Assembly (NCBI GenBank): GCA_017473615.1
Contig: JAFUKL010000026.1
Location: 1-63,727, forward strand
Reading direction: 5' to 3'
Source of the DNA: Muribaculaceae bacterium
GTDB lineage: Bacteria; Bacteroidota; Bacteroidia; Bacteroidales; Muribaculaceae
Length of the DNA: 63,727 nucleotides
How positions within the stretch are numbered: position 1 is the first letter of the stretch; each line of letters begins with the position of its first letter. The notes below the pieces were generated by a model. It was not told the DNA's origin. It made no database searches and saw only the letters and a program-made list of their open reading frames with translations. Made by a program: the position numbers and the translations under genes. Shown here piece after piece: positions 1,324-57,166 of this stretch.

Positions 1324-1390
1324 TAAGAATCTGTTTAAAATTTTCTTATTTTTTTATTACGGCTTTATTTGGGAGCTGTTTCGGATTCTA
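1324..1390 (+). repeat. Dispersed intergenic repeat, copy 1
   Basis: Starts TAAGAATCTGTTTAAAATTT and ends TTTCGGATTCTA, with the core ATTACGGCTTTATTTGGGA. It sits between the divergent starts of the DUF3108 gene and murI, an unusual place because most copies follow a stop codon. Confidence 0.75.
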
Positions 1391-1472
1391 CTAATTTTAG
1401 TTCTACACACCACACAGAGCCAACAATCGACATATTTTTATTCCAAAGAAAGAATCTTTCACAGAAAGTACT

Positions 1473-1480
1473 TATCTTTG
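1473..1480 (+). promoter_or_regulatory. murI -7 promoter element
   Basis: TATCTTTG matches TAnnTTTG, 18 bp before the murI start codon. No clear TTTG element is seen at the usual distance upstream. Confidence 0.55.
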
Positions 1481-1498
1481 TAAAAAGTACAATAAGGC

Positions 1499-2335
1499 AT
1501 GATTTCTTCAAAAAACGACATAGGACCTATAGGAATTTTCGACTCGGGATACGGAGGCTTGACAATCCTAAACGCAATACGCAAAAAACTGCCGCAATAT
1601 GACTACCTCTATTTAGGTGACAATGCCCGCGCTCCATACGGATCACGGTCATTCAATATCGTATATCGTTTCACTATAGAAGCTGTAAAATATCTGTTTT
1701 CGCAAGGGTGCAATCTTGTGATTCTTGCCTGCAACACGGCATCAGCAAAAGCATTGCGTACCATACAACAGAACGACTTGCCGGTAATAGATCCCTCCAA
1801 ACGAGTATTAGGCGTAATACGCCCTACCGTTGAAAAGATCGGTGAAATATCAAGAAACGGGAACATAGGCATATTAGGCACATCGGGAACGATACAAAGC
1901 CGCTCCTATGACATGGAAATCGAAAAATTGTATCCATCATTCAAAGTGTTTTCGCAAAGCTGCCCTCTATGGGTTCCTTTAGTAGAGAACTTTGAAGCTG
2001 ACAAGGATGGAGCGGATTACTTCGTGCAAAAATACCTTAACATGCTGTTTGAGCAAAGCTCGGAAATCGACAGCATAATATTAGGATGCACTCACTACCC
2101 CATCCTATTCAATAAGATAAGGCAATATACTCCGAAACATATACACATAATAGAACAAGGCGGTATTGTAGCCGACAGTTTGAAAGACTACTTGTCCCGA
2201 CATCCCGAAATGGAATGCAGATGTTCGCATAGCGGTACTTGCACATATCTCACCACCGAAGACGAAGATAAATTCAACGGTATGGCTTCGGTGTTTCTCA
2301 ATGAAGAAGTAAAATCAAAACACATTAATTTATAA
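1499..2335 (+). CDS. murI: Glutamate racemase
   Basis: Interconverts L- and D-glutamate to supply D-glutamate for peptidoglycan; cytoplasmic and normally essential. The 278-residue protein has the usual length. Visible family motifs are GIFDSGYGGLT (residues 12-22), LACNTASA with the first catalytic Cys at about 78, and LGCTHYP with the second catalytic Cys at about 197. Both cysteines needed for the two-base mechanism are present. The ATG follows a -7 promoter element by 18 bp, so the leader would be very short. The DUF4465 lipoprotein gene follows 12 bp later and may be co-transcribed. Confidence 0.97.
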   Translation: MISSKNDIGPIGIFDSGYGGLTILNAIRKKLPQYDYLYLGDNARAPYGSRSFNIVYRFTIEAVKYLFSQGCNLVILACNTASAKALRTIQQNDLPVIDPSKRVLGVIRPTVEKIGEISRNGNIGILGTSGTIQSRSYDMEIEKLYPSFKVFSQSCPLWVPLVENFEADKDGADYFVQKYLNMLFEQSSEIDSIILGCTHYPILFNKIRQYTPKHIHIIEQGGIVADSLKDYLSRHPEMECRCSHSGTCTYLTTEDEDKFNGMASVFLNEEVKSKHINL

Positions 2336-2347
2336 CACATAAAAAAA

Positions 2348-3121
2348 ATGAATACGCTTTTAAAAATCACATTGTCGGCACTGATTGCCACAACATTCCT
2401 TTCATCTTGTGAGAAGAACGATGAAGACAACAGCATTATAACCGTGCACCTCAACCAGACCGAAATACCATACGATGAAAACGGCGTATGGAGTCAAGCT
2501 ATGACTGAGAATGCACGTATCATATCCCAAGGCGTGGCATTCTCGCATCAAGCCATACCGGAATGGAACACATGGAACGGATTCATTGCATCTCGCAACA
2601 ACGACACCGAAGACTATTCTGCCGATTTCTCATGGATGGATCATCAGGCTACAGCCATTACCGGCGGCGGACTTTCAGGAGAGGGTACACCTTATCTTAT
2701 TGCATACTGGAACTCCAGTGAAGGAGAAAACGTAGACCATACCACCGCATCGTGTGCAGTCACTTACGGTAACGGCACTTTCATACCGCAATCTATTCAG
2801 ATAACAAACACTACTTACGCATATTACACCATGACTAATGGTTCTTCCTTTTCAAAACAATTCAAGAAAGGAGACTATCTGCACTTGCTTATATATGGAG
2901 TGAAACCCGATGGAACGAAAACCGGACCGGTAACATTCACCCTTGCCGACTATTCTGAAGACACTTCTAAGCCCCTCAGTCAGTGGGAATATGTAAATAT
3001 CGAAGAATTAGGAGAGGTTTCAGGAATTTATTTCCAAATGGACTCCAGCGACAAAGGAATATGGGGGATGAACACTCCAGCATACTTTGCAGCAGATCGC
3101 CTGACGATTAAGAAACCCTAA
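2348..3121 (+). CDS. DUF4465 lipoprotein
   Basis: A 257-residue protein with a lipoprotein signal (ATTFLSSC, lipid-bearing Cys near residue 21). The mature part matches the DUF4465 pattern: WNTWNGFIASRNNDTED, then an ACAVTYG-like segment, FKKGDYLHLLIYG, and a C-terminal YFAADRLTI. Such proteins occur in Bacteroidota as surface or periplasmic lipoproteins, often predicted to be beta-sandwich folds; the ligand is unknown. It is 12 bp from murI, but nothing links the two functionally. The stop codon runs straight into a repeat copy (TAAAGCTGTTTTAAAT). Confidence 0.8.
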   Translation: MNTLLKITLSALIATTFLSSCEKNDEDNSIITVHLNQTEIPYDENGVWSQAMTENARIISQGVAFSHQAIPEWNTWNGFIASRNNDTEDYSADFSWMDHQATAITGGGLSGEGTPYLIAYWNSSEGENVDHTTASCAVTYGNGTFIPQSIQITNTTYAYYTMTNGSSFSKQFKKGDYLHLLIYGVKPDGTKTGPVTFTLADYSEDTSKPLSQWEYVNIEELGEVSGIYFQMDSSDKGIWGMNTPAYFAADRLTIKKP

Positions 3122-3228
3122 AGCTGTTTTAAATGAAGCTGTTTTAAATTTTCTTCAAAATGTTATTTCGGTTTTATTTGGGTATAGTTTAGGATTCTTT
3201 AAGGAATAAAATTAAAACAGCATCTAAA
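3119..3228 (+). repeat. Dispersed repeat, copy 2, with both ends
   Basis: A partial left end (3119-3133, its TAA being the stop codon of the DUF4465 gene) is followed by a second left end at 3134. The core TTTCGGTTTTATTTGGG leads to the right end AAAATTAAAACAGCATCTAA at about 3208-3227. The right end is the imperfect inverse of the left end. The first 14 bases are thus tandemly duplicated. Confidence 0.7.
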
Positions 3229-3262
3229 AGGTCGAAATCGTTAGTTTTTCGACCTTTTTAGT
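3227..3262 (+). terminator. Hairpin terminator after DUF4465 gene
   Basis: AAAGGTCGAAA and TTTTCGACCTTTTT form a strong stem closed by a short loop and followed by a T run. It would terminate murI-DUF4465 transcription. Confidence 0.75.
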
Positions 3263-3302
3263 TAAAAAACATTATTTCCAACATTTTTCTTATTTTAAAA
3301 CT

Positions 3303-3316
3303 ATGTTATATAACAT
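3303..3316. promoter_or_regulatory. Palindrome ATGTTATATAACAT, possible operator
   Basis: A perfect 14-bp palindrome ending 8 bp before the -7 element at 3325, so it covers the region where RNA polymerase would contact the -33 side. Same motif as at 479-492 and 50973-50986. Confidence 0.45.
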
Positions 3317-3324
3317 AAAAACAT

Positions 3325-3332
3325 TACCTTTG
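3325..3332 (+). promoter_or_regulatory. -7 promoter of candidate small RNA
   Basis: TACCTTTG matches TAnnTTTG. No protein-coding frame follows until 3745; instead a structured stretch with a terminator follows. Confidence 0.5.
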
Positions 3333-3339
3333 CATCAAG

Positions 3340-3490
3340 TTTTCATGGTAATAGTTTTAAGGTTATTCTAAAAACAAGATGTCGTGACGACATGGTTTTT
3401 AAGATTTAGTTTTATGGTTTATGTAAATAGTATTAAAAGGTTAATACTGAAAGCGGATCTTCGGCGTGAGTCGAGGATTTGATTTTTTAT
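3340..3490 (+). ncRNA. Candidate orphan small RNA
   Basis: Between the promoter at 3325 and a terminator-like hairpin at 3455-3490 (ATCTTCG/CGAGGAT then a T-rich tail) there is no gene. In the middle a strong stem is visible: AAAAAC (3370-3375) and ATGTCG (3379-3384) pair with CGACAT (3388-3393) and GTTTTT (3395-3400). Two related segments of the form ATGGT...TTAAGGTTA flank that hairpin. It could instead be a long leader of the TPR gene, but the terminator and a repeat copy lie between. I do not recognise a named family. Confidence 0.4.
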
Positions 3491-3534
3491 ATACCTCATT
3501 ATTTCTTATCTTTACAGCCGGATTACAAAAGAAC

Positions 3535-3736
3535 TAAGAAGCTGTTTTGAATTTTCTTCAAAATATTATTACAGCTTTACTTGGGTCTTATTTCGGATTC
3601 TTTAAGGCTCTTTTGATTGTCTTTGTCATCAAACCTCTTGGATTATGGCACGCTATTACTTTCGCAATTTGACGACAAATCCATTCCAAAATATTCCTTA
3701 AAACAATCTCGAAATAAAATTAAAACGACTTCTAAA
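3535..3736 (+). repeat. Dispersed repeat, longest copy, MITE-like
   Basis: About 200 bp. Left end TAAGAAGCTGTTTTGAATTT; right end AAAATTAAAACGACTTCTAA. The right end reversed reads TTAGAAGTCGTTTTAATTTT, an imperfect terminal inverted repeat of about 20 bp. An internal TTATTTCGGATTC is mirrored by CTCGAAATAA near the right end. It ends 8 bp before the TPR gene start. No reading frame is inside, so any movement would need proteins from elsewhere. Confidence 0.7.
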
Positions 3737-3744
3737 TTTCGAAT

Positions 3745-4017
3745 ATGAGCAATTTGCAAGAAATAAAAAAACTTATCAACGATAACCAAACAGACGCTGC
3801 GACAGAATTACTGAAAGCTATCATCCAAAACGATAACGACAATGACGAAGCATATTTCCTCTTAGGAAATATATACAGCAAAAAGAACGAATGGAGCAAA
3901 GCCATCAACGCCTATAGCCAAGCCACCGCCATAAACCCACAAAGCCCGGCACGCATTGCGAACGAACAATTATTAAAAATTCTTGATTTCTACCACCACG
4001 ACCTATACAACCCATAG
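3745..4017 (+). CDS. Small TPR protein
   Basis: A 90-residue cytoplasmic protein (no signal peptide) made almost entirely of tetratricopeptide-type helices. The clearest repeat is AYFLLGNIYSKKNEWSKAI at about residues 36-54, with canonical G and Y/A positions; a degenerate repeat precedes it. TPR units bind partner proteins; which one is unknown. The gene begins 8 bp after a full repeat copy and has no visible promoter of its own. It converges on the 4041-5402 gene with only 23 bp between the stops. Similar small TPR proteins are common in Bacteroidales. Confidence 0.8.
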   Translation: MSNLQEIKKLINDNQTDAATELLKAIIQNDNDNDEAYFLLGNIYSKKNEWSKAINAYSQATAINPQSPARIANEQLLKILDFYHHDLYNP

Positions 4018-4040
4018 GCGATTTATCAACGGGCTCGCAA

Positions 4041-5402
4041 CTACAAAGTTTTCCAAATTTCACTATCCCTCATCAATTCTTTCTTTCCGGAGACACTGTC
4101 AAGCACATAAACCTTAGCTGAATCAACCTTAACAGAAAGAACATCATCAACAGTTTCCGGAATATACAGCTTTTTATTATCCAGTAATTCCAGTTCACTC
4201 AACTTTTTCTTTATTCTTGACAAAGAGGCAGGCAAGCCGGGAGTAATATAAGTTTTTTCTTCATCATTCTCCCACTTCCCCACCATATTATATATCTTGT
4301 TAAAAACAATGTTCAAACGTTTCACTCTTGTCATAGAAGTGTCATTCCTCCTCACTACTTTCCCCATAACATCAGCATAAAGCAGGAATACATACAAAGC
4401 CCTTTCATAAGCCGACAAATCCAATTCGGCATTTATATCCTCAAACAAAATCCTATGACGTGATACGTCTATCAAAATACGGCTGTCAAACTTCTTTCCC
4501 GGAAACGCCAACAAATCAAAAATTGATTTATTAAATCCGCGGTATTCAAACCTACTGCCATTATGTGTCTCCTGTCGTACCGTTATACCGCCGTCCTTGA
4601 CTATATGCCTATAGCAATCTATAAAATAACGTATATCATCCAGCACATTTCCGGTAATAATGAATTTAAAATAATTATGAACCGGTTTAAAGGCTACCCT
4701 CGAATCTGCAATCTTAACAAGGAATGACGGCTCGGTATCATACAGGCTCTTAAGCCCCATCTTATTATACAGCAAAGAACGACAGAAATCTACTGTAGTC
4801 AAATTACACATTTTATCATATACAGCCTTTATGCCGCTATCCGACACTGTGGGTGCCAAATGCCTTATTATAGACATCAATTGTCCCTGTTCTACTTGAG
4901 AAAAATATCGGCTCTTACAGGGTATATACACGAAATCAAAACCAGCCAACCGCAATTCATTATCTATAGTTCGGTAATTAGCCTTTATTACATCGTTAGT
5001 GCCTTCATCATAATCACTTTCAACATAAAATACTGTAAAAGGTTCTATATTATCCAATTCACCTGTGCTACAATCGATAATATCCCCTCCACCACTCTCA
5101 AGCACATAGCGTAAAGCTAATACAAGCAAGGCTTCCGAGCTTTCACATTTCCCATCAGCAAAAGCCAACCGTTCAAGATGAGAAACCAAAATTTGTCTTT
5201 TTGCTGCCGACAAGCCCTTCAACTCATTGACAGCATCAGCCAATGTAATATTTTGCGCCTCGGCAAGAACCGCAGAACCGTCTATATTATAACTGTCACA
5301 TATCTCACCGAACAGTTCTATTTCACGCATATCGATTACCGTATCCGACTTAACCAAATCCGTAAGGAAACGAACTATGGCTATCTTTTCTCTTTGTTTC
5401 AT
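4041..5402 (-). CDS. Unknown protein with TerB-like N-terminal region
   Basis: A 453-residue soluble protein without signal peptide or membrane segment. Residues 1-110 are helical and acidic, with spaced acidic positions (for example FLTDLVKSDTVIDMREIELF and LAFADGKCESSE) that resemble TerB-type helical domains. The middle is mixed alpha/beta with no motif that I recognise. The C-terminal third (about 330-453) looks like a winged-helix or helix-turn-helix region, ending in LPASLSRIKKKLSELELL and a beta-rich tail. Role unknown; the TerB link is inference from pattern only. It stands alone, convergent with the TPR gene and divergent from the membrane-protein gene at 5508. Confidence 0.6.
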   Translation of the reverse strand: MKQREKIAIVRFLTDLVKSDTVIDMREIELFGEICDSYNIDGSAVLAEAQNITLADAVNELKGLSAAKRQILVSHLERLAFADGKCESSEALLVLALRYVLESGGGDIIDCSTGELDNIEPFTVFYVESDYDEGTNDVIKANYRTIDNELRLAGFDFVYIPCKSRYFSQVEQGQLMSIIRHLAPTVSDSGIKAVYDKMCNLTTVDFCRSLLYNKMGLKSLYDTEPSFLVKIADSRVAFKPVHNYFKFIITGNVLDDIRYFIDCYRHIVKDGGITVRQETHNGSRFEYRGFNKSIFDLLAFPGKKFDSRILIDVSRHRILFEDINAELDLSAYERALYVFLLYADVMGKVVRRNDTSMTRVKRLNIVFNKIYNMVGKWENDEEKTYITPGLPASLSRIKKKLSELELLDNKKLYIPETVDDVLSVKVDSAKVYVLDSVSGKKELMRDSEIWKTL

Positions 5403-5473
5403 AATTGAATCTCATTTACTGAAATTTCGGTAAATTTAATCAAAAAATATATCGAAAGCCGAATAATATTTGA

Positions 5474-5481
5474 TACTTTTG
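5474..5481 (+). promoter_or_regulatory. -7 promoter element for 5508 gene
   Basis: TACTTTTG matches TAnnTTTG, 26 bp before the start codon. Confidence 0.55.
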
Positions 5482-5507
5482 CATATTACAACAAATTTAT
5501 CCGTATT

Positions 5508-6134
5508 ATGGCAAAACAAGCATCTGCATATTTCAAAATTTCAGCCGTTTCGGCTATTTACATGATACTTTGTTTCTTTGCTTTTTACGATATAGCCATT
5601 CCTTATAAAATAGCATTTCCTGCAATTTCATTATTTATTTCAGCCCTTTGGATATCGCCGTGGCAAATAGCTACAGCCATAATACTATTTGCATCAGGTG
5701 ACATTATGCGAGCACAGGGCAATTTCCCATTGCAGACAGGAGCCTACGGAATTGCAGCTATATTTTTCTCATGGTTCTTTATAACTCGTTTTTTCAAAAT
5801 GAACGGTAAAGCATCTGTGGGCAACATCATTCTCACCACATTGCTTGTAATAGGAATATGCACACTGGAATTATTTATAATCATACCCCAAGTTCCGGAA
5901 GGAACTCTACGTCACGGAGCTGTCGCTTACGCAATAATTACATCGGTACTACTTTGGTGTGCATTGCTGCAAAAAGATTTGGTTTACGCCTTAACCGGAC
6001 TTGCATTTACTTTTTCAAGCATCATGCTTGCGTGGAATAAATACATATCAGACGTTCCTTATGCTGTTTACCTGACATATATTCCCTATTATATCTCTAT
6101 TCTCATATCCTTTATACGTTCGTCTAAAATATAA
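5508..6134 (+). CDS. Polytopic inner-membrane protein, unknown
   Basis: 208 residues, overwhelmingly hydrophobic, with about seven predicted membrane segments separated by very short loops. The last segment is followed by a basic end (FIRSSKI). No transporter or enzyme motif is recognisable. The fold size suits a YhhN-like or small integral membrane protein, but I do not claim that family. It has its own promoter. The TAA stop codon is also the first three bases of a dispersed repeat copy. Confidence 0.7.
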   Translation: MAKQASAYFKISAVSAIYMILCFFAFYDIAIPYKIAFPAISLFISALWISPWQIATAIILFASGDIMRAQGNFPLQTGAYGIAAIFFSWFFITRFFKMNGKASVGNIILTTLLVIGICTLELFIIIPQVPEGTLRHGAVAYAIITSVLLWCALLQKDLVYALTGLAFTFSSIMLAWNKYISDVPYAVYLTYIPYYISILISFIRSSKI

Positions 6135-6193
6135 GAAACTATTTAAATTTTCTTACAGTTATACTTGTAACACGTTTCGGTTTCTTTAAAGTT
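6132..6193 (+). repeat. Dispersed repeat, copy 4
   Basis: TAAGAAACTATTTAAATTTT, then CAGTTATACTTG and CGTTTCGGTTTCTTTAAAG. Its first TAA is the stop codon of the preceding gene. Downstream sequence to about 6245 (TTCTTCC..CTGTCTTTTTAG) weakly matches the interior of the 3535-3736 copy, so a decayed longer element is possible. Confidence 0.65.
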
Positions 6194-6374
6194 CTTCCGG
6201 CTGTCTTTTTAGTTGTGCAACGAACTTCTTGCAGCTTTACAACCGGGCAAATTTCAAGAAGTAAAAGCATTATTCTCATACGGCGTGCATTTTAACTTAT
6301 TTTACAATACATGTGAAACATTAATGCACACCAAGGAATGAACTTTGCATTAAGAAATTCTAAAAGATACAATT

Positions 6375-6754: not shown

Positions 6755-7213
6755 ATGAAAAAGTTAATGTTTTACGCTCTTGCATTAGGAATTTTAGCCT
6801 CATGTGGGAATTCAAAAAATGCAAATGGAATATTAGATGAAAATGTTTTGCCCGGTGACACAATGATAGAAATCATAGGCGAATGGATAGAAGTGCCTGC
6901 TGAAGGAGACACCAACATGTTGCAACAACCTAAAAAAGTGAAATTCAACAAAGACAATACTATGGAAGGTACTCCTATAGTAAAAAAAGAGAAAAAGAAA
7001 GGCATCAAGAATGCCGCTGATTCCATCACCGTAACCACTATGGTTTATCAATTATGGGATCAGCAAGGAGATACCTTGACAATGATTTCACAAAGCGCAA
7101 TCGATCCACAATTGCAAGACACCGTTACTTGGGGTATCGTTTCACTTACCGGTGACTCATTAAAACTAAACAACGACGCTCAAGGTACTAAAAACTACGT
7201 AAGACAAAAATAA
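6755..7213 (+). CDS. Lipocalin-like lipoprotein
   Basis: 152 residues with a lipoprotein signal peptide, LGILASCG, Cys at about 17. The mature part is beta-rich and follows the lipocalin-like layout seen in many Bacteroidota lipoproteins: IIGEWIEVPA near residue 40, a VKFNKDNTMEG strand pair, YQLWDQQGDTLTMIS, and a closing GDSLKLNN strand. Probably anchored in the periplasm or outer membrane; ligand unknown. The TAA stop overlaps the start of a repeat copy, and a terminator follows at 7353. Confidence 0.75.
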   Translation: MKKLMFYALALGILASCGNSKNANGILDENVLPGDTMIEIIGEWIEVPAEGDTNMLQQPKKVKFNKDNTMEGTPIVKKEKKKGIKNAADSITVTTMVYQLWDQQGDTLTMISQSAIDPQLQDTVTWGIVSLTGDSLKLNNDAQGTKNYVRQK

Positions 7214-7260
7214 GAATCCGTTTAAAATTTAAACATATTCTAAGACCAAAACGGCATCTA
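7211..7260 (+). repeat. Dispersed repeat, short degenerate copy
   Basis: Left end TAAGAATCCGTTTAAAATTT (its TAA is the stop codon of the lipoprotein gene) and right end CAAAACGGCATCTAA about 30 bp later; the two ends pair as an imperfect hairpin. The core is lost. Confidence 0.6.
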
Positions 7261-7352
7261 ACACACTTATTATGCCCGGCACAGAAGTTGTTTTAAGAAA
7301 ATTCAAAGCAACTTCTTATAACACGCAGATCGTCTTATTCGAAATTTTTATT

Positions 7353-7390
7353 AAAAAAGGCTCATTCCTTATTGCGGAGTGAGCTTTTTT
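7353..7390 (+). terminator. Hairpin terminator
   Basis: AAAAAAGGCTCA and TGAGCTTTTTT pair around a 15-nt loop, ending in a T run. It closes the 6755-7213 transcript. Confidence 0.75.
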
Positions 7391-7505
7391 ATGTAATTTT
7401 ACACTGAATATGGCATAGAGTGTGCAAAAGAGTACAATCAAGCCGTATAGAGAGATTAAAGAGAGAAAAAAACTATAACATTTCAAGATTTAAACAAAAA
7501 CAATT

Positions 7506-8198
7506 ATGGTTTATTCACATGAAGTACAAGAAATGTGCTGTGTAAAGAAGGGTGCAAACCACCCATCAGCGCCAATTCCTGAAGAAGGAAAATGGGTTAG
7601 ATCAAAAGAAATCAAAGACATTTCAGGTCTTACTCACGGTATCGGCTGGTGCGCTCCTCAACAAGGCGCATGTAAGCTAACTCTTAACGTTAAGGAAGGT
7701 ATCATCCAAGAAGCATTGGTTGAAACTATCGGATGTTCCGGTATGACACACTCTGCTGCAATGGCAAGTGAAGTTCTTCCGGGTAAGACAATCCTTGAAG
7801 CATTGAACACCGACCTTGTGTGCGACGCAATCAACACCGCAATGCGCGAATTGTTCTTGCAAATCGTTTACGGACGTACACAATCCGCATTCTCTGAAGG
7901 CGGTCTTGTAGTAGGAGCATCATTGGAAGACCTTGGAAAGGGACTTCGCAGTCAAGTAGGTACTATGTTCGGTACTTTGGCTAAAGGACCTCGTTACTTG
8001 GAAATGGCAGAAGGCTATTGCACACGCATGGCTCTTGACGAAGAAAACCAAGTTATCGGTTACGAATTCCTTCACTTAGGCAAGTTCACCGACTTCTTGA
8101 AAAAGGGCGTTCCCGCAGAAGAAGCACTACAACAAGCTAAAGGTCACTACGGACGTTTTGAAGAAGCAGCTAAATACATTGATCCACGTAAAGAATAA
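7506..8198 (+). CDS. NifU-like iron-sulfur cluster scaffold protein
   Basis: 230 residues, soluble. The sequence resembles the IscU/NifU N-terminal scaffold fold, with conserved Cys in GWCAPQQGACKL (about 45-56) and TIGCSGMTHSAAMASEVLPG (about 76-95), where the scaffold family has cluster-binding cysteines. The longer C-terminal part holds an LEMAEGYCTRMAL segment. It is followed 17 bp later by the GGGtGRT gene, and the two are a recurring pair in anaerobes. The likely role is handling Fe-S clusters for a partner enzyme, but the substrate is not known. Codon use looks like a highly expressed gene. Confidence 0.8.
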   Translation: MVYSHEVQEMCCVKKGANHPSAPIPEEGKWVRSKEIKDISGLTHGIGWCAPQQGACKLTLNVKEGIIQEALVETIGCSGMTHSAAMASEVLPGKTILEALNTDLVCDAINTAMRELFLQIVYGRTQSAFSEGGLVVGASLEDLGKGLRSQVGTMFGTLAKGPRYLEMAEGYCTRMALDEENQVIGYEFLHLGKFTDFLKKGVPAEEALQQAKGHYGRFEEAAKYIDPRKE

Positions 8199-11726: not shown

Positions 11727-11792
11727 TAAGAACCGGTTTTGAATTTTCTTAAAATGTTATTACAATTATGCTCAAAACATGTTTCGGATTCC
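11727..11792 (+). repeat. Dispersed repeat, copy 6
   Basis: TAAGAACCGGTTTTGAATTT at the left, core ATTACAATTATGCTCAAAAC diverged, and CATGTTTCGGATTCC at the right. It fills the gap between the convergent glycohydrolase and sugar-transferase genes. Confidence 0.7.
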
Positions 11793-11811
11793 ATGAAAAC
11801 AATGTTCTTTT

Positions 11812-17999: not shown

Positions 18000-20009
18000 A
18001 TGGCTGACATTTTTGAGCAAAGAATCCTTGATTTACGCAAGGAAATAAACGAGCACAACCACCGATATTATGTTCTTAACAACCCTACAATTTCCGATAA
18101 GGAATTTGACGACATGTTACGCGAATTACAGGAATTGGAGGAAACATATCCGCAATTCTTCGATGCTTATTCGCCTACTCAACGTGTGGGGAGCGACATT
18201 ACACAAGGATTCAAGCAGGTTAAGCACGAACGTCCCATGATTTCACTGTCCAATTCATATTCGGTAGATGAAGTAGCCGACTTCCTCACTCGAGCCGAGA
18301 ACGGTTTGCAAGGCGAAAAGTGCGAAATAGTCGGAGAAATGAAATTTGACGGCACGTCAATATCCTTAATCTATGAGCATGGCAGGCTTATCAGAGCCGT
18401 AACAAGAGGCGATGGAGAACGCGGCGACGACGTTACTTCAAATGTGCTTACAATCAAAAGTATTCCGCTTTTATTACCCGAAAACAGCGGCTACCCCGAT
18501 TCTTTTGAAATACGCGGAGAGATACTCTTGCCTTGGAAACAGTTTGAACTGCTCAACAAAGAACGCGCATTCAATGAAGAACCGCTTTTCGCCAATCCCA
18601 GAAATGCAGCTGCAGGAACTCTGAAACTGCAAAATTCAGCCGAAGTGGCACGGCGCGGACTTGATGCTTATTTTTATTACATTCTTGGCGACAATCTTCC
18701 ATGCGATACACATTACGGCAATATGCAGCAAGCCAAAGAATGGGGGTTCAAAGTCGCTCCCGTAATGGACATATTGCCTTCCCTTGACGATGTGAGGAAA
18801 TTCATTTCATATTGGGACATTGAACGCAAAAACCTTCCCGTAGCCACCGATGGATTAGTATTCAAGATAAACAGTTTGCGACAACAACTCAATTTAGGCA
18901 GTACGGCAAAATCTCCGCGTTGGGCTGTAGCATTCAAGTTTCAGGCAGAAAGAGCTTGTACACCACTTAAATTCGTTTCTTTTGAAGTGGGAAGAACGGG
19001 TGTTGTTACTCCGGTTGCCAATCTGGAACCGGTATTACTCTCGGGAACAATAGTGAAACGAGCCTCTTTGCATAACGAAGACATAATACGCTCTCTGGAT
19101 ATTCACGAAAACGACAAACTATATGTAGAAAAAGGAGGAGAAATCATACCTAAAATCGTAGGTGTCGATACAGATAGCCGACTTGCCGGCAGCAAACCGA
19201 TTGAGTTCATTAAAGAATGCCCGGTGTGCGGTTCGGAGTTGAAACGCATCGAAGGCGAAGCGGCTTGGTTCTGCCCGAACAAATATGAGTGCGCTCCTCA
19301 AATCACCGGTAAAATAGAGCATTTCGTAGGACGCCACATGATGAATATCGATGGAATAGGCGAAGAAGTTGCCGAACAATTGTTTACATCAGGATTGGTA
19401 AAGAGCATTGCCGATTTATATGATTTAACCGAGGAAAAACTCATGACACTTGAGAGATTCAAGGAACGGTCGGCTCGTCGTATCATCAACGGTATCGAAG
19501 AGAGCAAAAAAGTACCGTTTGAACGCGTGATTTTTGCCCTATCGATACCTTTTGTCGGAGAAACTACCGCTAAAGTCTTGGCAGGAGCCGCTCATGACAT
19601 TGACACTCTAATGGCAATGGACGAAACCGGGCTGTCCTCTATCAACGAAATCGGCGATAAAATAGCTCACAGCGTCGTTGAATATTTCAGCAGAAATGAT
19701 AACAGAATCATTATTGAACGGCTGCGGCAAGCCGGGCTGCAAATGGCTGTTTCCGAAGAAGAATTATTGAACAAAACCGACAAACTGGCAGGAAAATCCA
19801 TTGTAATAAGCGGAACTTTTGCACATCACTCACGCGATGAATATAAGAAAATGATTACCCAAAACGGAGGAAAAAACGTTGGGTCTATCTCATCTAAAAC
19901 CGATTTCGTATTCGCAGGCGAAAACATGGGACCGGCAAAATTGGAAAAAGCACAAAAACTTGGAATACCTATAATAAGTGAAGAAGAGTTCTTGAAAATG
20001 ATAGAATAA
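18000..20009 (+). CDS. ligA: NAD-dependent DNA ligase
   Basis: Seals nicks in DNA using NAD+; essential for replication and repair. At 669 residues it has the full family length. The adenylated lysine is in EMKFDG (K115, KxDG motif), preceded by the N-terminal NAD-binding helices ([11 protein letters not shown]). The OB-fold follows, then a four-cysteine zinc finger (CPVC...C...C, about 406-428), a helix-hairpin-helix region (about 440-580), and a C-terminal BRCT domain (about 590-669, [20 protein letters not shown]). All catalytic pieces are present. A repeat copy begins directly after its stop codon. Confidence 0.98.
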
Positions 20010-20062
20010 TAAGCAGTTTTGATTTTTCTTAAAATATTATTCCGGCTTTACTTGGGACATTT
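20010..20062 (+). repeat. Dispersed repeat, copy between ligA and ogt
   Basis: Starts TAAGCAGTTTTGATTTTTCT, core ATTATTCCGGCTTTACTTGG, ends near GGACATTTC. It fills the space between ligA and the convergent ogt gene, whose last codons it contains. Confidence 0.75.
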
Positions 20063-20566
20063 CAACGATGACACATCTATATGTTCCAATTGTAGCAGGC
20101 TTACTTTTTTATCAATCCCGCCGGCATATCCGGTAAGAGTGCCTCCGCAACCGATAACCCGATGACATGGCACTATAATACTCACAGGATTACGACCGAC
20201 AGCGTTACCTACCGCCTGTGCCGACATTGACGCTATTCCCATCAAGTTTGCTGCCTCACAGGCTATATCCTTGTATATGACAACTCTTCCGTAAGGTATT
20301 CGTTTCAATATATTCCACACCAAAAGTTGAAACGGTGTTCCGTCAAGCTCTACATCAGGCATAAAATCAGGACATATACCGCAGAAATACAGGTCAAGCC
20401 AACTCCTGACCTTAACAAAAGCATTGGAATCACGCACATATTTTTCGATAGTCCGGTTTTCGGCAAAATACTTTTGACCGGCGAACCACAACCCGGTCAA
20501 ATGCGTCCCTGTGCCTGCAAGTGTTATTTCTCCAAGCGGAGAATAATATTTATCGGTATAAATCAT
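20048..20566 (-). CDS. ogt: Methylated-DNA--protein-cysteine methyltransferase
   Basis: 172 residues. Repairs O6-methylguanine by moving the methyl group to its own Cys. The active-site motif VPCHRVIG is present (about 134-141), with the preceding GNAVGRNP and the helix-turn-helix region around IPYGRVVIYKDIA. Length is right for the Ogt type without the AdaA domain. The final residues (LKCPK) and the stop codon are encoded by a dispersed repeat copy, so the natural C-terminus may have been replaced. Start chosen at the first ATG after the terminator at 20621. Confidence 0.93.
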   Translation of the reverse strand: MIYTDKYYSPLGEITLAGTGTHLTGLWFAGQKYFAENRTIEKYVRDSNAFVKVRSWLDLYFCGICPDFMPDVELDGTPFQLLVWNILKRIPYGRVVIYKDIACEAANLMGIASMSAQAVGNAVGRNPVSIIVPCHRVIGCGGTLTGYAGGIDKKVSLLQLEHIDVSSLKCPK

Positions 20567-20990: not shown

Positions 20991-21010
20991 TAAGAAACTA
21001 TTTTGTTTTT
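20991..21010 (+). repeat. Dispersed repeat, left-end fragment
   Basis: TAAGAAACTATTTTGTTTTT resembles the repeat left end. It abuts the stop codon of the HMA gene on the minus strand. Confidence 0.5.
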
Positions 21011-21216
21011 TAATCCTCTATACCCAAGAAATCAAAACCCGTATTTTCTATTGCAGCAGCCACATCATCATCAGAAACTTCACCTGTCACTGCTGCTATC
21101 CCGGCAGATAAATCCACTTTTACCGCTACTACACCCGGTAACATCTTCAACGCACGTTCAACGCTCGCCGCACAGCCGCCACAAGCCATGCCTCCTACCT
21201 TATATTTCTTTTCCAT
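21010..21216 (-). CDS. Heavy-metal-associated (HMA) domain protein
   Basis: 68 residues: one ferredoxin-like HMA domain of the CopZ/MerP size. The metal site GGMACGGCAAS (MxCxxC, about 8-18) is intact, followed by VERALKMLPGV and a final DFLGIED. It probably carries copper or another soft metal. No P-type ATPase or metal regulator is nearby, so the partner is unknown. Its left and right sides carry the two ends of the dispersed repeat, so the gene may sit inside a composite element. Confidence 0.9.
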   Translation of the reverse strand: MEKKYKVGGMACGGCAASVERALKMLPGVVAVKVDLSAGIAAVTGEVSDDDVAAAIENTGFDFLGIED

Positions 21217-21242
21217 AGCTCTTATTATTCAGAATAACATTT

Positions 21243-21269
21243 TTTAGAAAATTCAAAACTGCATCTAAA
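21243..21269 (+). repeat. Dispersed repeat, right-end fragment
   Basis: TTTAGAAAATTCAAAACTGC followed by ATCTAAA matches the right ends at 3208-3228 and 3716-3736. It lies upstream of the HMA gene start. Confidence 0.6.
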
Positions 21270-25672: not shown

Positions 25673-25721
25673 TTAGAATCTGTTTAAATTTTATTTTGAG
25701 ATTATTTAAACAGATTCTTAA
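25673..25721. repeat. Dispersed repeat reduced to a perfect hairpin
   Basis: TTAGAATCTGTTTAAAT (25673-25689) is inverted as ATTTAAACAGATTCTTAA (25704-25721). Only the left end, mirrored, remains. It sits between the HipA stop side and the start of the T9SS protein gene. Confidence 0.7.
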
Positions 25722-35492: not shown

Positions 35493-35564
35493 AAGAGAAC
35501 GTAAAGCCACCATTCATTGTTATGATAATGACATTTTGGCAACGTTTTTGCTAAGAGAGTGTTC

Positions 35565-35630
35565 AGAATCTGTTTGAATTTTATTGAAAAACATTATTAG
35601 TGTTTTACTTGGTTCATGTTTCGGATTCTG
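35565..35630 (+). repeat. Dispersed repeat, copy between ispE and grpE
   Basis: AGAATCTGTTTGAATTTTAT, core ACATTATTAGTGTTTTACTT, end CATGTTTCGGATTCT. The first six bases AGAATC and last six GATTCT are perfect inverses. Confidence 0.75.
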
Positions 35631-35695
35631 AAATTTAAACGCTTTTTAAGCATACAACTTAAAAATACAACAAAGAATATAAAGAAACTATATAT

Positions 35696-49040: not shown

Positions 49041-49784
49041 ATGAAAGCTATGATATTTGCGGCAGGAATGGGTACGCGTTTACGCCCGCTCACCGACAAT
49101 ATGCCCAAAGCTATGGTTCCTGTAGACGGCAAACCGATGCTTCAGCGTGTTATCGAGAACTTGAGCCACTATGGTTTCAAGGATATTATTGTGAATATCC
49201 ACCATTTTGGCGACCAAATAATCGACTTCCTGCATGAGAACAACAATTTCGGACTTAACATAGCAGTAAGCGACGAACGAGAACAGTTACTTGACACCGG
49301 CGGTGGTATACTTGCAGCCAAAGATTTCCTTAACGATGGCGAACCTTTCATTGTACATAACGCCGACATACTATCGACACTAAATCTTTCTGAGATGTAC
49401 CGACATCACTGCGAAAGTGATGCCGACGCGACTCTCCTTGTAAAATCAAGAAAGACCGAGCGATATTTACTATTCGATGAGAAAAATCACCTTCACGGCT
49501 GGATAAACAAAAGAACAGGAGAAACCCGCCCCTGCGGATTCCGGTTTTCAAATCACGAATATCAAGAATTTGCATTCGGAGGGATACACGTCATTTCACC
49601 CTCAGTTTTCAATGCCTTGGAAAGCTACTCCGAAGAACCTAAGTTTTCCATTACACCATTCTATATCGACAAATGCCGTGAATTAAATATTCTTGGTTAC
49701 AACCCTACGGGATATGACTGGTTCGACATCGGTAAGCCGGAAACACTCGCCCTTGCCAACCAATACTTCCAAAACCCAAAATAG
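49041..49784 (+). CDS. Nucleotidyltransferase, MurU-like
   Basis: 247 residues (starting at the ATG 49041; the frame also has a TTG at 49035). Sugar-1-phosphate nucleotidyltransferase: AAGMGTRLRPLTDNMPKAM (about 7-25) binds the nucleotide, PVDGKPMLQRVIENL follows, FIVHNADILSTL has the metal Asp (about 109), and GYDWFDIGKPETLALA closes the site. It resembles MurU, which makes UDP-MurNAc from MurNAc-1-P in the recycling bypass of Pseudomonas. It lies 13 bp after the kinase-RapZ gene. UTP and MurNAc/GlcNAc-1-P specificity is inferred. Its TAG stop overlaps a repeat copy. Confidence 0.85.
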   Translation: MKAMIFAAGMGTRLRPLTDNMPKAMVPVDGKPMLQRVIENLSHYGFKDIIVNIHHFGDQIIDFLHENNNFGLNIAVSDEREQLLDTGGGILAAKDFLNDGEPFIVHNADILSTLNLSEMYRHHCESDADATLLVKSRKTERYLLFDEKNHLHGWINKRTGETRPCGFRFSNHEYQEFAFGGIHVISPSVFNALESYSEEPKFSITPFYIDKCRELNILGYNPTGYDWFDIGKPETLALANQYFQNPK

Positions 49785-49850
49785 AATCTGTAGTAAAAAT
49801 TTTAAGAAAATTTTACTACAGCTATACTTGGGACATGTTTCGGATTCTAA
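49783..49850 (+). repeat. Dispersed repeat, copy with hairpin left half
   Basis: AGAATCTG start (overlapping the TAG stop codon), then GTAGTAAAA (49790-49798) inverted as TTTTACTAC (49811-49819), core GCTATACTTGGGACATGTTT and end CGGATTCT. The left half has become a perfect hairpin. Confidence 0.75.
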
Positions 49851-49868
49851 ACTTTAATGAATAAAAAA

Positions 49869-52226: not shown

Positions 52227-52262
52227 ATAAAACGCCTCCGCTCCTGGGCGTTTTATTTTTTT
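52227..52262 (+). terminator. Hairpin terminator after ald
   Basis: ATAAAACGCC and GGGCGTTTTAT with a 9-nt loop and a long T run. Confidence 0.85.
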
Positions 52263-52291
52263 TACAATAGCATTTTACAAAATAAAATTAC

Positions 52292-52299
52292 TACATTTG
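52292..52299 (+). promoter_or_regulatory. -7 promoter of glycosyltransferase-radC pair
   Basis: TACATTTG, 29 bp before the start codon. Confidence 0.55.
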
Positions 52300-52328
52300 T
52301 AAAAATGTAATATTGAAAACAGCACGAT

Positions 52329-53327: not shown

Positions 53328-53334
53328 TCACATT

Positions 53335-54045
53335 ATGAGCAACGACAGTCCCTCCTATACAAGAGCCATTAAAGACCTCGCGGCAGAAGACCGTCCGAGA
53401 GAAAAAGCGGCAAGCAAGGGTTTCCGCGCGCTCACCACAGCCGAGCTGCTCGCCATTCTTATCGGCAGTGGAAGTCGCGGTGAATCGGTAGTAGACCTAT
53501 GCCAACGTATTCTCAACTCCAACGACAACAAACTTTACAATCTGGGAAGAAGAAACATTCAGGATCTCACCGGCGCATTCCACGGTGTGGGGGAAGCCAA
53601 AGCAACCACAATACTCGCCGCACTGGAAATCGCACGCAGATACAGGGAAGAAGACGCATTTGAAGAACGTCCGCAATTGACTTCTTCCAAGAGTGTATAT
53701 GATTATATCAAGTATGACCTATGGGATTTGGAACATGAAGAATTTTGGATTATCACGCTCAACAGGTCAAAACGCATTACCGGCAAATTCCAAATAAGCC
53801 ACGGCGGAACGGCAAGTACAGATGTTGACATAAAGATTCTGCTCAAAACTGCACTTCAGCAACTCGCCGATTGCATCATCGCCATACACAATCACCCGTC
53901 GGGCAATCTCACACCGAGCCGCCCCGATGACATTATCACCGAGAGCATCAAAAAAGGATGTTCTGCCATAGGCATTCCGTTACTCGATCATATCATAGTA
54001 AGCAGAAACGGATTTTACAGCTACTTAGACGAAGGAAAACTATAA
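53335..54045 (+). CDS. radC: RadC family JAB-domain protein
   Basis: 236 residues. N-terminal helix-hairpin-helix region (about 20-95, LLAILIGSGSRGESV) and a C-terminal JAB/MPN metalloprotein domain with HNHPSGNLTPSRPD (about 187-200), the zinc-binding His-His-Asp set. RadC was named for DNA repair but its true activity is not settled. The JAB fold suggests a protease or nuclease. It lies downstream of a glycosyltransferase, with no evident functional link. Confidence 0.93.
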   Translation: MSNDSPSYTRAIKDLAAEDRPREKAASKGFRALTTAELLAILIGSGSRGESVVDLCQRILNSNDNKLYNLGRRNIQDLTGAFHGVGEAKATTILAALEIARRYREEDAFEERPQLTSSKSVYDYIKYDLWDLEHEEFWIITLNRSKRITGKFQISHGGTASTDVDIKILLKTALQQLADCIIAIHNHPSGNLTPSRPDDIITESIKKGCSAIGIPLLDHIIVSRNGFYSYLDEGKL

Positions 54046-54102
54046 CACTCCGACTTTTATAATTACAACATAACTAACAACTTAAAAATAACAAACTACA
54101 TT

Positions 54103-57100
54103 ATGAGAATCATTAGTATCATTACTGCTATCGTAGCATTTACGATCAGCGTCTCGGCACAACCGCTGCTTGTGGGACACCGAGGAAGCATCTGGGGATT
54201 GGAAAACTCCTCGGAAGCATTCATCAACGGAGCAAAGAAAGGATATCATTACCTTGAAACCGATGTTAAAGTAACTAAAGACGGTAAGCATGTGTGCTGT
54301 CATAACGATGATCTGACAACCTGGGGCGGAACGCTCACCATCGCATCGAGTACGCTCGAACAGCTGCAAGCAGAAACTCTTACACAAACACGCAGCGGAG
54401 TGACATATACAGGTCATTTATGCTCCTTGGAGGAATACCTTGACATTTGTAAGGAACACAACGTAAAGCCGCTTATCGAATTGAAATGGGCTACAGGTAT
54501 CAACAGCAACGACTGTTCGGGTATCCCTGCTCTTATTAAAGTCATCGAGGATAAGGGTTTCCGTTCCACTTGTATCATACTTACGTCTATGAAACCCTGC
54601 CTTGAATACATTCGCACAAATTATTCCGACATAGAGCTGCAATTCCTCACCGGAGAGTATTGGGCAAACCATTTCGATTGGTGTGTACAATGGGACATCG
54701 ATGTCGATATCCAAGCCGGATATTTTTCAAAATCAACAGTTACGCAATACCACGAAAAGGGTTTGAAAGTAAATATGTGGACAGCAAACGATAACGCATC
54801 CTATCAGACTTACGGCAATTTCGGATGTGACTTTATTACAACCGACAAATTGGATTCGGCAACACTCCCCGACCTCAACGCCGAAGCTACATTGCCTCCA
54901 AACGTGATAGACTATCCCACAATGAACGGTGTAATAAAGGAAAGTTATACAGCCCAGAAGGTAACAAGTGCTGCTACTCCCACTCATTTACAAGGTATGA
55001 CAATACGCCGTGCTTTGATAAACAATGACAAATGGTATGTACTTGCACACGATACCGACAAATCACCCATCCTATCGGTTGTAAATGCCGAAACAGGAAC
55101 AGAAATCAAGCATATGGACTTAACCGGCGTAGAAGGCGGAGAAGTAACACTTAGCGATATCGCATTCACTGCCGACGGCGTACTGCTCGGTTGCAATCAG
55201 GCTATAGTCAATTATGGTGGTGGCGGAGATGTTTTTAAAATATATAAATGGACAAGTGACGACGCCGCACCCGAAGTGTTTACCACAATCGACAATGCCT
55301 CTTATCTCGGCAATTGGACCAATTCTTATGCCGGCGAAACATTCACCGTAAGCGGAAATCTGAACGAGTTGTATGTATACGTTTCTACGCACTCAAGCTC
55401 AGGCACCGCATTCCGTATTGCCGGCATTCAATACTCCGGCGCAACCGCAGGTACTTATGTATACGCACTTGACAGCAGTTACAATCAAGAAAATTGGGGC
55501 ACAGATGTAAAATTCTCTTCCACCCCTTTCTCGCGCAACAACATTCTTGTTGACAGCGACATAATGAATGCCACAGAGTTCACACTAAACTGGGAAGGCA
55601 CTCGTATACCGATGACTGAATACTCTTCTTTGTCAGCCGATGACATCGATACAAAGGCAACCGGTATCGATTTCATACGCATAGGCGCAAAGGTGTATGC
55701 CTATATAGCCGATTGCGATGATACACAGGCAAACACATCGGCTGCACTATATGACGCTACCAGCAAACTTGAAGCAATCACCTCTGTCAGCGGCAGCACA
55801 ACCGGTAATTCAAGCACAGAAATCATTTCCTACGTAAACACGCAACTCGAATATAGCAACAACACCCTATATCTATATTTGTTCACACAAGGGGAAGGTA
55901 TCTCCAAATATGCCATAGAATTTGAAAAAGACGAAGTGGTTAGGGATGTGGAACTCACACTTGAATTACTTTGGGAAAACAGCCGCACCGAAGGCACTTT
56001 GCCACAGAACATAGATGGTACTAATGCTCAACAAGGCAACGCACATAAAGGTCTGTTCTACGTCAACAATTGCGTCGACAAGAAGATATATATCTTCGAC
56101 AAAACAGGATGCTTAGGCAGCATAGAGGGCGGTGCAGGTTTCGGTACTGCATGTGATGATGCAGGAAACATCATTGTACGTAATGACAAGCTCTCCGGTA
56201 CTGAACACTCGTTCATAATATATCCTTCAGGTGCAACCGTTGAGAATCCGGGTACATACGTATCTATCGATGTCACTGTGCCTCTATCGGGACAAACCAA
56301 TTTCATAAGCGCATCGGGTGACGTACTCGGTGATGGCGGTGCAATATACCTGTTCCCGAACGGCAATAATGCAGTTAACATCATTTCATTGGAAAACGGA
56401 GAAGTAACCGGAACACGGACATCCACTACCGATCTTTCCATTACGGCATCCACTGCAGGATACGTGATTCCGATTAACAACAATACAGAGAACTGGATTT
56501 ACCACGTTCGCGCCAACGGTTTCTATATGTACAACGGCGGTAGCAGTGAATCACTTTTAACGACAAAAGCTTCTACTACTGCTCCGGCTCGCAACTCTAC
56601 CGGCGGTGGCGACTATTTCACTATCGGCGGCCATAACATACTGCTGCACAATAGCGGAGCAAACTATCGTGGTGGTTTTGCAGTGAGAGACATGACCGAT
56701 GACAAGGTTATCGCCAACATCGACCCGATAGGTACATTAGGATATGAGGAAGGCGGTAATTATTCCACATTCAACTGGCTGTTTGCCGAAAAGATTGATG
56801 ACAACAGCTACTATATCTATCAATACTGCCCGTCAAACGGTATGGCTGTATATCGTCTGTATGACAAAAATTCAACATCAGCTATAGAAGATACATTTAC
56901 CGCAGAAACCGGCAAACTATCAATCTATCCTAATCCGGCTACCGATGCCGTGAATATCCTTGCCGATGAAGAAATTACAGCTATAGCTTTATTCAATATT
57001 TCAGGTGCGCTATTAAATACTGAGGCTGAAATAAACGGCAACACGGCTCGCATGAATATAGAAGAGCTGCCTGCCGGAACTTATATTCTTCGTGTCAATG

Positions 57101-57129
57101 ACAAATCAGCCAAATTAATAAAGAAATAA
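54103..57129 (+). CDS. Secreted glycerophosphodiesterase-like protein with beta-propeller and T9SS tail
   Basis: 1008 residues. Signal peptide about 1-19 (cleavage after SAQ). Residues about 20-270 are a GDPD domain: VGHRGSIWGLENSSEAF, LETDVKVTKDG and CCHNDD contain the catalytic His-Arg, Glu-x-Asp and His. About 285-930 is a repetitive beta-rich region, probably a propeller, with GYVxP, DDAGNIIVRND and FYxxNxxxKxIYIF-like units. The last ~75 residues are a T9SS type A sorting domain (LSIYPNPATDAVNIL, LFNISGALL, LPAGTYILRVNDKS, KLIKK). It should act on glycerophosphodiesters outside the cell. Fifty-seven bp after radC, possibly its own transcript. Confidence 0.88.
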   Translation: MRIISIITAIVAFTISVSAQPLLVGHRGSIWGLENSSEAFINGAKKGYHYLETDVKVTKDGKHVCCHNDDLTTWGGTLTIASSTLEQLQAETLTQTRSGVTYTGHLCSLEEYLDICKEHNVKPLIELKWATGINSNDCSGIPALIKVIEDKGFRSTCIILTSMKPCLEYIRTNYSDIELQFLTGEYWANHFDWCVQWDIDVDIQAGYFSKSTVTQYHEKGLKVNMWTANDNASYQTYGNFGCDFITTDKLDSATLPDLNAEATLPPNVIDYPTMNGVIKESYTAQKVTSAATPTHLQGMTIRRALINNDKWYVLAHDTDKSPILSVVNAETGTEIKHMDLTGVEGGEVTLSDIAFTADGVLLGCNQAIVNYGGGGDVFKIYKWTSDDAAPEVFTTIDNASYLGNWTNSYAGETFTVSGNLNELYVYVSTHSSSGTAFRIAGIQYSGATAGTYVYALDSSYNQENWGTDVKFSSTPFSRNNILVDSDIMNATEFTLNWEGTRIPMTEYSSLSADDIDTKATGIDFIRIGAKVYAYIADCDDTQANTSAALYDATSKLEAITSVSGSTTGNSSTEIISYVNTQLEYSNNTLYLYLFTQGEGISKYAIEFEKDEVVRDVELTLELLWENSRTEGTLPQNIDGTNAQQGNAHKGLFYVNNCVDKKIYIFDKTGCLGSIEGGAGFGTACDDAGNIIVRNDKLSGTEHSFIIYPSGATVENPGTYVSIDVTVPLSGQTNFISASGDVLGDGGAIYLFPNGNNAVNIISLENGEVTGTRTSTTDLSITASTAGYVIPINNNTENWIYHVRANGFYMYNGGSSESLLTTKASTTAPARNSTGGGDYFTIGGHNILLHNSGANYRGGFAVRDMTDDKVIANIDPIGTLGYEEGGNYSTFNWLFAEKIDDNSYYIYQYCPSNGMAVYRLYDKNSTSAIEDTFTAETGKLSIYPNPATDAVNILADEEITAIALFNISGALLNTEAEINGNTARMNIEELPAGTYILRVNDKSAKLIKK

Positions 57130-57151
57130 GTAAAGTATTGGAGCTGTATAT

Positions 57152-57166
57152 AAACAGATTCTAAAA
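57152..57166 (+). repeat. Dispersed repeat fragment
   Basis: AAACAGATTCTAAAA matches the inverted left end (as in the hairpin at 25704-25721). The rest of the element is missing. Confidence 0.4.

Follow-up and report, generated by a model that had tools for sequence, protein, structure and literature searches.

The 63,727-nucleotide contig JAFUKL010000026.1 of a Muribaculaceae bacterium (assembly GCA_017473615.1), analysed over its full length and referred to here as the window, carries numerous related non-coding stretches between its genes. A preliminary description, made from the sequence alone, had listed ten copies and three fragments as one dispersed family resembling REP (repetitive extragenic palindrome) elements or MITEs (miniature inverted-repeat transposable elements). 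We consider it highly probable that the repeats constitute a family of MITEs, moved by a transposase of the IS5/IS1031 type. The assignment as MITEs is based on (i) their inverted-repeat ends, (ii) the duplicated TNA triplets that flank them, (iii) the sites that lack the element in genomes of the same genus, and (iv) ends and a target that agree with those of an element of the IS5 family of insertion sequences (ISs). The mover itself we infer, since none was found in the incompletely assembled genome (G000; 2,006,793 bases in 51 contigs, completeness 78.08%), of which the window is contig 17. Two further genomes of the genus (G001 and G002) were used for comparison.

The family was traced with a sequence-only profile of 69 positions, which covers the left 67 nt of the element; its training set comprised 16 copies, including eight window copies. 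Because 150 of 2011 first-look candidates were scored, the resulting counts are lower bounds: at least 125 matches in the genome at E (expectation value) up to 10, and at least 54 at E<1e-5. The 54 strong matches are evenly distributed between the strands (27 per strand). Eight are located in the window and the other 46, a few of which were also in the training set, provide the independent test of the profile. Within the window the search gave 24 matches up to E 10, including the copies listed at 1324, 3134, 3535, 6132, 11727, 20010, 35565 and 49783 (E 7e-21 to 3.4e-11). A repeat finder recovered the same eight as a 54-nt family (at 1337, 3146, 3549, 6133, 11740, 20020, 35577 and 49796), together with two further overlapping families (set D1-D3). 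The end pattern AAGAANCTGTTTNAANTTT, with one mismatch allowed, matched the genome 37 times in the forward and 27 times in the reverse orientation, and the reversed control gave no match in either. With a 201-nt copy from the window as the query, 45 genomic matches were obtained, 19 of them covering at least 167 nt. The family is therefore real: general AT-richness does not account for 64 end-pattern matches against none in the control, and the additional copies far exceed ten. The density of one copy per 5 kb noted at the outset holds for the window and is a local figure, as the window represents 3.2% of the genome and contains eight of the 54 strong copies, where 1.7 would be expected; the choice of the window preceded this comparison. 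No match to the element was found in plasmids and phages by blastn, and viral contigs contained no exact match to a 30-letter element pattern. At the gathering score, Rfam identified only a tRNA in the window, and the repeats are thus not a known Rfam family.

The main form of the element, F, is a foldback of about 197 bp, whose consensus, 201 nt long when the two triplets are included, has the layout T(N)A-GAATCTGTTTAAAATTTT ... AAAATTTAAACAGATTC-T(N)A. The 19 two-ended F copies are 70.8-99.0% identical to this consensus, nine of them by at least 96%. F is almost wholly self-complementary; for copy L027 the minimum free energy (MFE) is -53.4, against a mean of -29.3 for shuffled sequences (z -6.3). 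Young F copies have terminal inverted repeats AGAATCTGTTTAAA on both ends, while those of the short form, S, comprise 6-10 bp. S (about 65 bp), to which most of the copies listed in the preliminary description belong, is the left part of F alone, closing at an internal GATTCT (...TTTCGGATTCT). The inverted AGAATC and GATTCT given in that description as the left and right ends are accordingly those of S, and the full element runs approximately 130 bp further. The core and right part described with them (ATTACGGCTTTACTTGGG and CATGTTTCGGATTCT) are present, and both lie within the left 67 nt of F. Some copies of S have TNA flanks of their own, i.e. TAA/TAA (C1), TTA/TTA (C6:10350), TTA/TTA (C28) and TAA/TAA (C42). 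It follows from the 98.5% identity between the copy C6:10350 and the left part of F that S units arose from F recently. The 65-bp form illustrates the origin of a smaller mobile unit within an older MITE, with the internal GATTCT acting as an alternative right end. Other forms are 82-115 bp or 29-88 bp long, the latter being mostly two ends placed back to back. A 197-bp element could hold no more than 65 codons, which would not suffice for a transposase.

Not all of the listed copies were of equal standing. Those at 7211 and 25673 proved to be mini elements with weak or negligible profile matches (E 0.035 and 9.7), the first having an end fragment nearby. Of the three fragments, that at 21243 was recovered on the minus strand, whereas those at 20991 (end pairing under a loose pattern only) and 57152 (11 letters resembling the right end, but unmatched by the profile at E values up to 10) were not significant. 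Folding, which had been proposed as a check, is strong in F and evident in the copies at 1324 and 25673, but weak in that at 11727 (z scores in Table 1).

For the analysis of target duplication we listed 47 two-ended elements by hand (19 F, 11 S, five M, ten mini elements and two others), excluding S ends internal to F copies, pairs more than 300 bp apart and pairs judged weak. TNA is present on both sides of 32 of the 47, and its middle letter is equal on the two sides in 24 of these (16 A/A, 8 T/T). The mean for shuffled pairings is 13.8, and the observed value was reached in 1 of 20,000 shuffles. When 12 of the left-out pairs were added, TNA was found on both sides of 34 of 59 elements and was equal in 25 of the 34 (mean 14.4; again 1 of 20,000 shuffles). 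For S alone the corresponding figures are 5 of 11 and 4 of 5.

These duplications bear on the likeness to REP elements that had been suggested. REP sequences and the related REPINs are palindromes of 20-40 nt without target duplication, tied to a gene for a RAYT (REP-associated tyrosine transposase), a Y1-type enzyme that moves them as single strands. The high copy number, the intergenic location and the palindromic short forms of the window family would suit such an origin, as would the presence in the genome of one Y1_Tnp gene (C16:52320-52661, a 153-aa frame, REP- or IS200-like). However, no significant copy lies within 1.5 kb of this gene (best E 0.3), and the 3-bp target duplication, the length of the main form and the IS5-like ends all speak against it, which makes a REP/REPIN-type family extremely improbable. 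The likeness to MITEs, in contrast, was borne out.

Twenty kilobases of the window were mapped onto G001 and G002, the matched pieces being 65-91% identical. No element is present at the places matching 3118-3227 (in G001) and 3535-3735 (in G001 and G002). The gene at 6755-7213 has the same end codon position in both congeners (TAA in G002, TAG in G001) and element 7211 is absent from both. Similarly, the gene at 18000-20009 ends with the same TAA in G001 and G002, where element 20008 is missing. Unoccupied places of the kind sought in relatives were thus found four times, although they are corresponding places rather than exact empty sites, because the flanks have diverged. The supposition that the element is active was upheld in the sense of recent movement, as judged from the nine F copies that agree with the consensus in 96% or more of their letters and from the young S copy with its TTA/TTA flanks. 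It is very unlikely that the repeats are merely decaying remains, i.e. old fragments of one IS that has not moved recently. Many copies are indeed truncated and no transposase gene was found in G000, but such remains would not include near-identical F copies at different places, nor the S copy just mentioned.

The location of the elements was evaluated with a simple gene caller (307 genes on 80 pieces, coding 81%), which missed some frames, including that at 5508-6134. None of the 47 listed elements lies within a gene called in this way, as would be expected if insertions into genes were lost. The 41 elements located between two called genes are divided among tandem, divergent and convergent spaces (20, 14 and 7, over 20,369, 12,554 and 7,163 bases, respectively) at nearly the same rate. 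The orientation of the 54 strong copies follows neither the gene strand (27 of 54) nor the GC skew (24 of 54), and no link with the direction of replication was seen. The preliminary description had also raised the possibility of a useful element. The repeats might, for example, be bidirectional terminators or form the 3' ends of mRNAs after stop codons, being selected for this role and only secondarily mobile. Several copies in the window do start on or just after a stop codon TAA (at 3119, 6132, 7211 and 20007), and F folds strongly. Yet TNA coincides with a stop codon in only 5 of the 47 elements, against 2.2 expected from all TAA/TTA sites (P 0.06), so that stop-codon targeting, striking in the window, is not significant genome-wide. 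A TNA target combined with the loss of harmful insertions would produce such starts. As the placement of the copies tracks intergenic length, a regulatory or terminator role is unsupported, and, with the four examined sites not being common to the congeners, we regard a selected function of this kind as having very little probability.

The probable transposase partner

The sequence AGAANCTGTTTNAANTTT is present without mismatch in 27 of 198 family genomes, G000 included; the reversed control gave 3 matches in all. In G105 and G068, contigs break inside an element whose inner end, when translated, resembles an IS5 transposase C-terminus. A pattern combining this C-terminus with the right end (TNA included) retrieved 47 stretches in named genomes, 40 from Bacteroidales and six from Acidobacteria according to the record titles, the remaining one being from Ilyomonas limi. 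A left end was sought in fifteen of the 47, which yielded seven intact elements, six of 871-872 bp and one, from Ilyomonas, of 852 bp. The 872-bp element belongs to the IS5 family and has the ends AGAATCTGTTTAAATTT...AAATTTAAACAGNTTCT; in comparison with F, its 14 left letters are identical, as are 20 of 21 at the right end (copy L226). All seven intact ISs have TNA on both sides, the right one being demanded by the search pattern. The element contains a single frame in six of the seven copies read; in L231 the frame is broken. The protein of L226 matches NF033580 (IS5 family transposase) with 220 bits, against a cut-off of 110, and contains the domains DUF4096 (PF13340) and DDE_Tnp_1 (PF01609). 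Relatives of this protein (E<=1e-10) are encoded in 39 of the 198 family genomes. A further IS5 element, in G153, encodes a protein with 42-43% identity and starts with the end AGAAACTGTTTAAAATT.

The right ends of the 872-bp element (L196-L242) were also compared among themselves. Among the Bacteroidales rows, different species have almost the same final ~56 letters, apart from one varying letter in the terminal repeat (AGAANCTG), which is constant in six of the nine genomes with two or more rows.

On this basis, an IS1031-type IS5 transposase, encoded by an IS with the same ends, would bind the AGAANCTGTTTAAA ends of the gene-less elements and move them into TNA sites, leaving a 3-bp TNA duplication. 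The shorter forms carry the same kind of end, and S would use the internal GATTCT as its alternative right end. Placement of the partner in the IS1031 type is suggested by the ends and the target.

Several observations weigh against this interpretation. No such transposase was detected in G000, G001 or G002 at E<=1e-10, and G000, complete to 78%, contains no DDE_Tnp_1 domain. The triplets are equal in three of the seven intact ISs (L226, L230 and L240) and unequal in four; among the MITEs themselves TNA is unequal in 8 of 32 cases, and 15 of the 47 listed elements have no TNA on one side. Moreover, each TNA triplet takes in the A of AGAA or the T of TTCT, so that only the outer letters are informative. 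Equal triplets flank 5 of 12 end-chosen elements of other family genomes (see below), some of whose ends are loosely placed. One element, C21:12232, was put inside a gene by a cruder, earlier gene caller. The site comparison was made between congeners, rather than with strains of the same species that have an exact empty site. Finally, the single full-length match in G001 (80% identical, among the matches listed) adjoins the same gene as the F copy C51:38651. This gene, by reading, appears to encode an OmpA-like protein. The two copies have the same orientation and the neighbouring proteins share 77% identity over 283 residues. On the other side the flanks are different; this F copy may be old and shared.

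Candidates for an autonomous element were also considered and rejected. In G000, pairs of ends 0.9-1.5 kb apart occur at C41:21374-22854, C9:7904-9268, C11:36641-37868 and C6:70569-71503, and the frames at these four places are not transposases by reading, no family search having been made. The 30 DDE_Tnp_1 loci of relatives contain no pair of such ends. Of ten frames located beside ends in relatives, eight belong to ordinary Pfam families and two matched none. A possible cargo element in the window (20993-21266), with two ends around a small gene that we take, by reading, to be heavy-metal-domain-like, was dismissed as well, since its left end is weak and G001 has a homologous frame (35% identity) at the corresponding position.

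Hairpin elements in other Muribaculaceae

Sixteen loci with ends of this type in other genomes of the family yielded 12 end pairs, nine of them 156-195 bp apart. These nine fold strongly, and their insides are mostly unlike F. Several have in common a central motif, TTC[A/G]GTCA-stem-loop-stem-TCC[C/T]TCATC. A pattern search for this motif in 59 family genomes gave 47 matches, distributed over 16 of them, against one in the control; some of the matches lack a stem. Across the order there were 25 matches in 22 of 149 genomes (control 4), in which the intervening letters, judged by eye, seem unpaired except in G255. Ten of 32 motif rows, from four genomes, have both AGAAACTGTTTAAA-type ends, and all ten are flanked by equal TNA (TAA, TTA or TCA); the other 22 have no such pair. 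The same core also occurs between other ends, namely GAGATTGTCTAAA (L245 of G115 and L386 of G166) and GAGCTTGTTTAATA (G115), and some cores have a quite different border (GACCCCGTTCCCC). An end pair with equal TNA, equality being demanded, was found for 9 of 41 cores and for 29 there was none, the remaining three being outside the test.

Two observations concern the surroundings of these cores. At L245 (1238-2434, G115) an IS is flanked directly by hairpin MITEs on both sides; the right MITE has the same end GAGATTGTCTAAA as the IS, and TTA is apparently common to both. Four places in the same genome have a core hairpin equally far from the transposase gene. In addition, the ends that enclose the mobile hairpin core (loci L316-L395) are IS5-like and of at least three kinds.

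An alignment of 21 cores was examined for compensatory changes, using a structure derived from the same alignment. Standard pairs fill 93.0% of the pair cells (74.8% after shuffling), 19 of 25 pairs have changed on both sides (11.8) and the covariation score is 0.514 (0.194). None of 500 shuffles reached these values, which are far lower when the structure is slid along the alignment, and the core thus seems to evolve in base-paired form, although measures of this sort can be inflated by relatedness. The number of further pair types (32 versus 29.5) was reached by 81 of the 500 and is within the range of the shuffles. The loop letters were fixed by the search pattern for most rows, and their constancy rests on the end-found elements of G093, G064, G178 and G194, with changes in G160. 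It could be that the stems have no function and owe their pairing to the repair of palindromes.

A covariance model of the core detected matches in 118 of 196 family genomes, representing 21 of 30 genera, at E<=0.001, with at most 23 candidates scored per genome; Rfam recognized no family in ten hairpin loci. When the model (R2) was compared with 16 given F copies of G000, 13 matched end to end (15.6-27.3 bits, E 0.00045-0.62), as did the G001 copy with 22.5 bits, while the F copies L024, L025 and L031 had no match up to E 1. A search of the whole of G000 gave no core-model match at E<=0.001, and the loop motif is absent from it. F is probably a divergent member of the hairpin-core group; it is placed no more firmly because a generic hairpin could gain part of the score.

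A more far-reaching proposal is that F is a divergent branch of a mobile hairpin present throughout the Muribaculaceae, whose base-paired core (GTCA and TCC-TC loop letters with a stem that varies in sequence) is kept by selection on structure, while the terminal repeats are exchanged to suit the resident IS5 transposase. We regard this as doubtful, though conceivable, given the partly pattern-fixed loop letters, the one covariation measure of five that lies within the shuffles and the three of 16 F copies that were not matched. If true, the core would be a working part of the element rather than passive filler, e.g. a folded single strand or RNA recognized by the transposase, the host replication machinery or an RNase. 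A real core would also raise the question of why a gene-less element keeps it paired through many genera while its ends change, and whether the hairpin is needed for movement or its symmetry is kept by palindrome repair.

Inventory of the window

The copies and fragments identified in the window are summarized in Table 1.

Table 1. Elements of the MITE family in the window (positions as in the 63,727-nucleotide contig)
Feature	Position	Strand	Remarks
S-form copy (65-bp type)	1324..1391	+	Between divergent genes; TAA left, TAC right; single-stranded DNA fold z -3.1
F-type copy, middle deleted	3118..3227	+	Left part 3132-3204 joined to right end 3205-3227; extra partial left end 3119-3131; begins at stop codon TAA 3119-3121; absent at the G001 place
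Full-length F copy, long foldback	3535..3735	+	TAA both sides; MFE -41.6, z -4.2; missing from both congeners (G001, G002)
Central hairpin of the F copy	3609..3692	+	Aligned end to end by core model R2 with 25.0 bits (E 0.0018; 118.6 kb searched)
Eroded left part of F	6132..6213	+	Begins on stop TAA of frame 5508-6134; right end not found
29-bp mini element, two ends	7211..7243	+	TAA both sides, the left one being the stop codon of gene 6755-7213; weak profile match
Left-end fragment	7291..7318	-	Profile E 3e-4
S-form copy, right end altered (GATTCC)	11727..11794	+	Found by profile; weak fold, z -0.8
S-form copy without right end	20008..20064	+	Directly after stop codon TAA 20007-20009
End fragment between two genes	21233..21266	-	Profile E 7.7e-6
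44-bp mini element, palindrome of two ends	25673..25720		TTA both sides; fold z -7.4
S-form copy	35563..35632	+	TCA left, TGA right; 10-bp terminal stem
S-form copy, left arm turned hairpin (CTGTAGTAAAA..TTTTACTACAG)	49781..49851	+	ATA left, TAA right

Inspection of the window revealed three further features. The non-coding stretch between two of the MITE copies (3235-3536) is conserved, being 83-87% identical in the two congeners, both of which have a second copy (79%) near murI. Part of it (3339-3404) matches the Rfam family FopS, which comprises paralogous small RNAs of Bacteroidetes, weakly (31.7 bits, gathering score 56, E 0.007), and the stretch is possibly a FopS-type small RNA. A terminator-like hairpin (7354-7390) and a leader precede the gene at 7506-8198; this region (7342-7636) is 89-91% identical in G001 and G002, and the encoded protein is 99% identical in G002. 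Positions 1-45 seem to fall in the 5' end of a minus-strand 16S rRNA gene, although Rfam at the gathering score lists none there.

Relation to known elements

The literature searched contains no description of an IS5-linked MITE in Muribaculaceae. It also yielded no published name for the family, in agreement with the preliminary description, which had recognized no named element; sequence-string matches were judged in part, by title.

Elements of the IS1031 group prefer TNA as the target and generate 3-bp repeats (PMC12016507). One of them, ISLrh (IS1031 subgroup of the IS5 family), is 857 bp long, has the ends GAACCTGTCTAGTATCT and a TNA target, and produces a 3-bp repeat (PMC12016507). The ends and the target of this subgroup agree with those of both the 872-bp element and the MITEs. 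ISLrh differs in having two overlapping frames (PMC12016507), whereas the 872-bp element has one in six of seven copies and the MITEs code for nothing.

Among MITEs of other bacteria, MITECca01 of Cardinium is a lineage-specific Bacteroidetes element of ~240 bp, named from ends that it has in common with an IS, but its partner is IS982, located within the same genome (PMC9769881). The Correia (204 bp) and ERIC elements are MITEs of similar length and are mostly intergenic, but they belong to other bacteria and have other ends (PMC10969869).

The kind of element described here is known, while the family itself is, as far as the literature searches reach, unpublished. Porphyromonas gingivalis, a member of the same order as the bacterium from which the window is derived, carries the nearest MITEs in print. 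These elements (BrickBuilt, MITE239 and MITE464/PgRS) are also non-coding and intergenic, with IS5-family-like ends, and their end GAGACTGTTGCA is similar in kind to GAATCTGTTTAAA of the window family (PMC4596501). The end sequence is nevertheless another one, and BrickBuilt, as described there, has 23-nt tandem repeats and target duplications of variable length (PMC4596501), in contrast to the foldback with TNA duplication found in the window. What goes beyond the routine in the present family is the nested S form, together with the structured core found family-wide.

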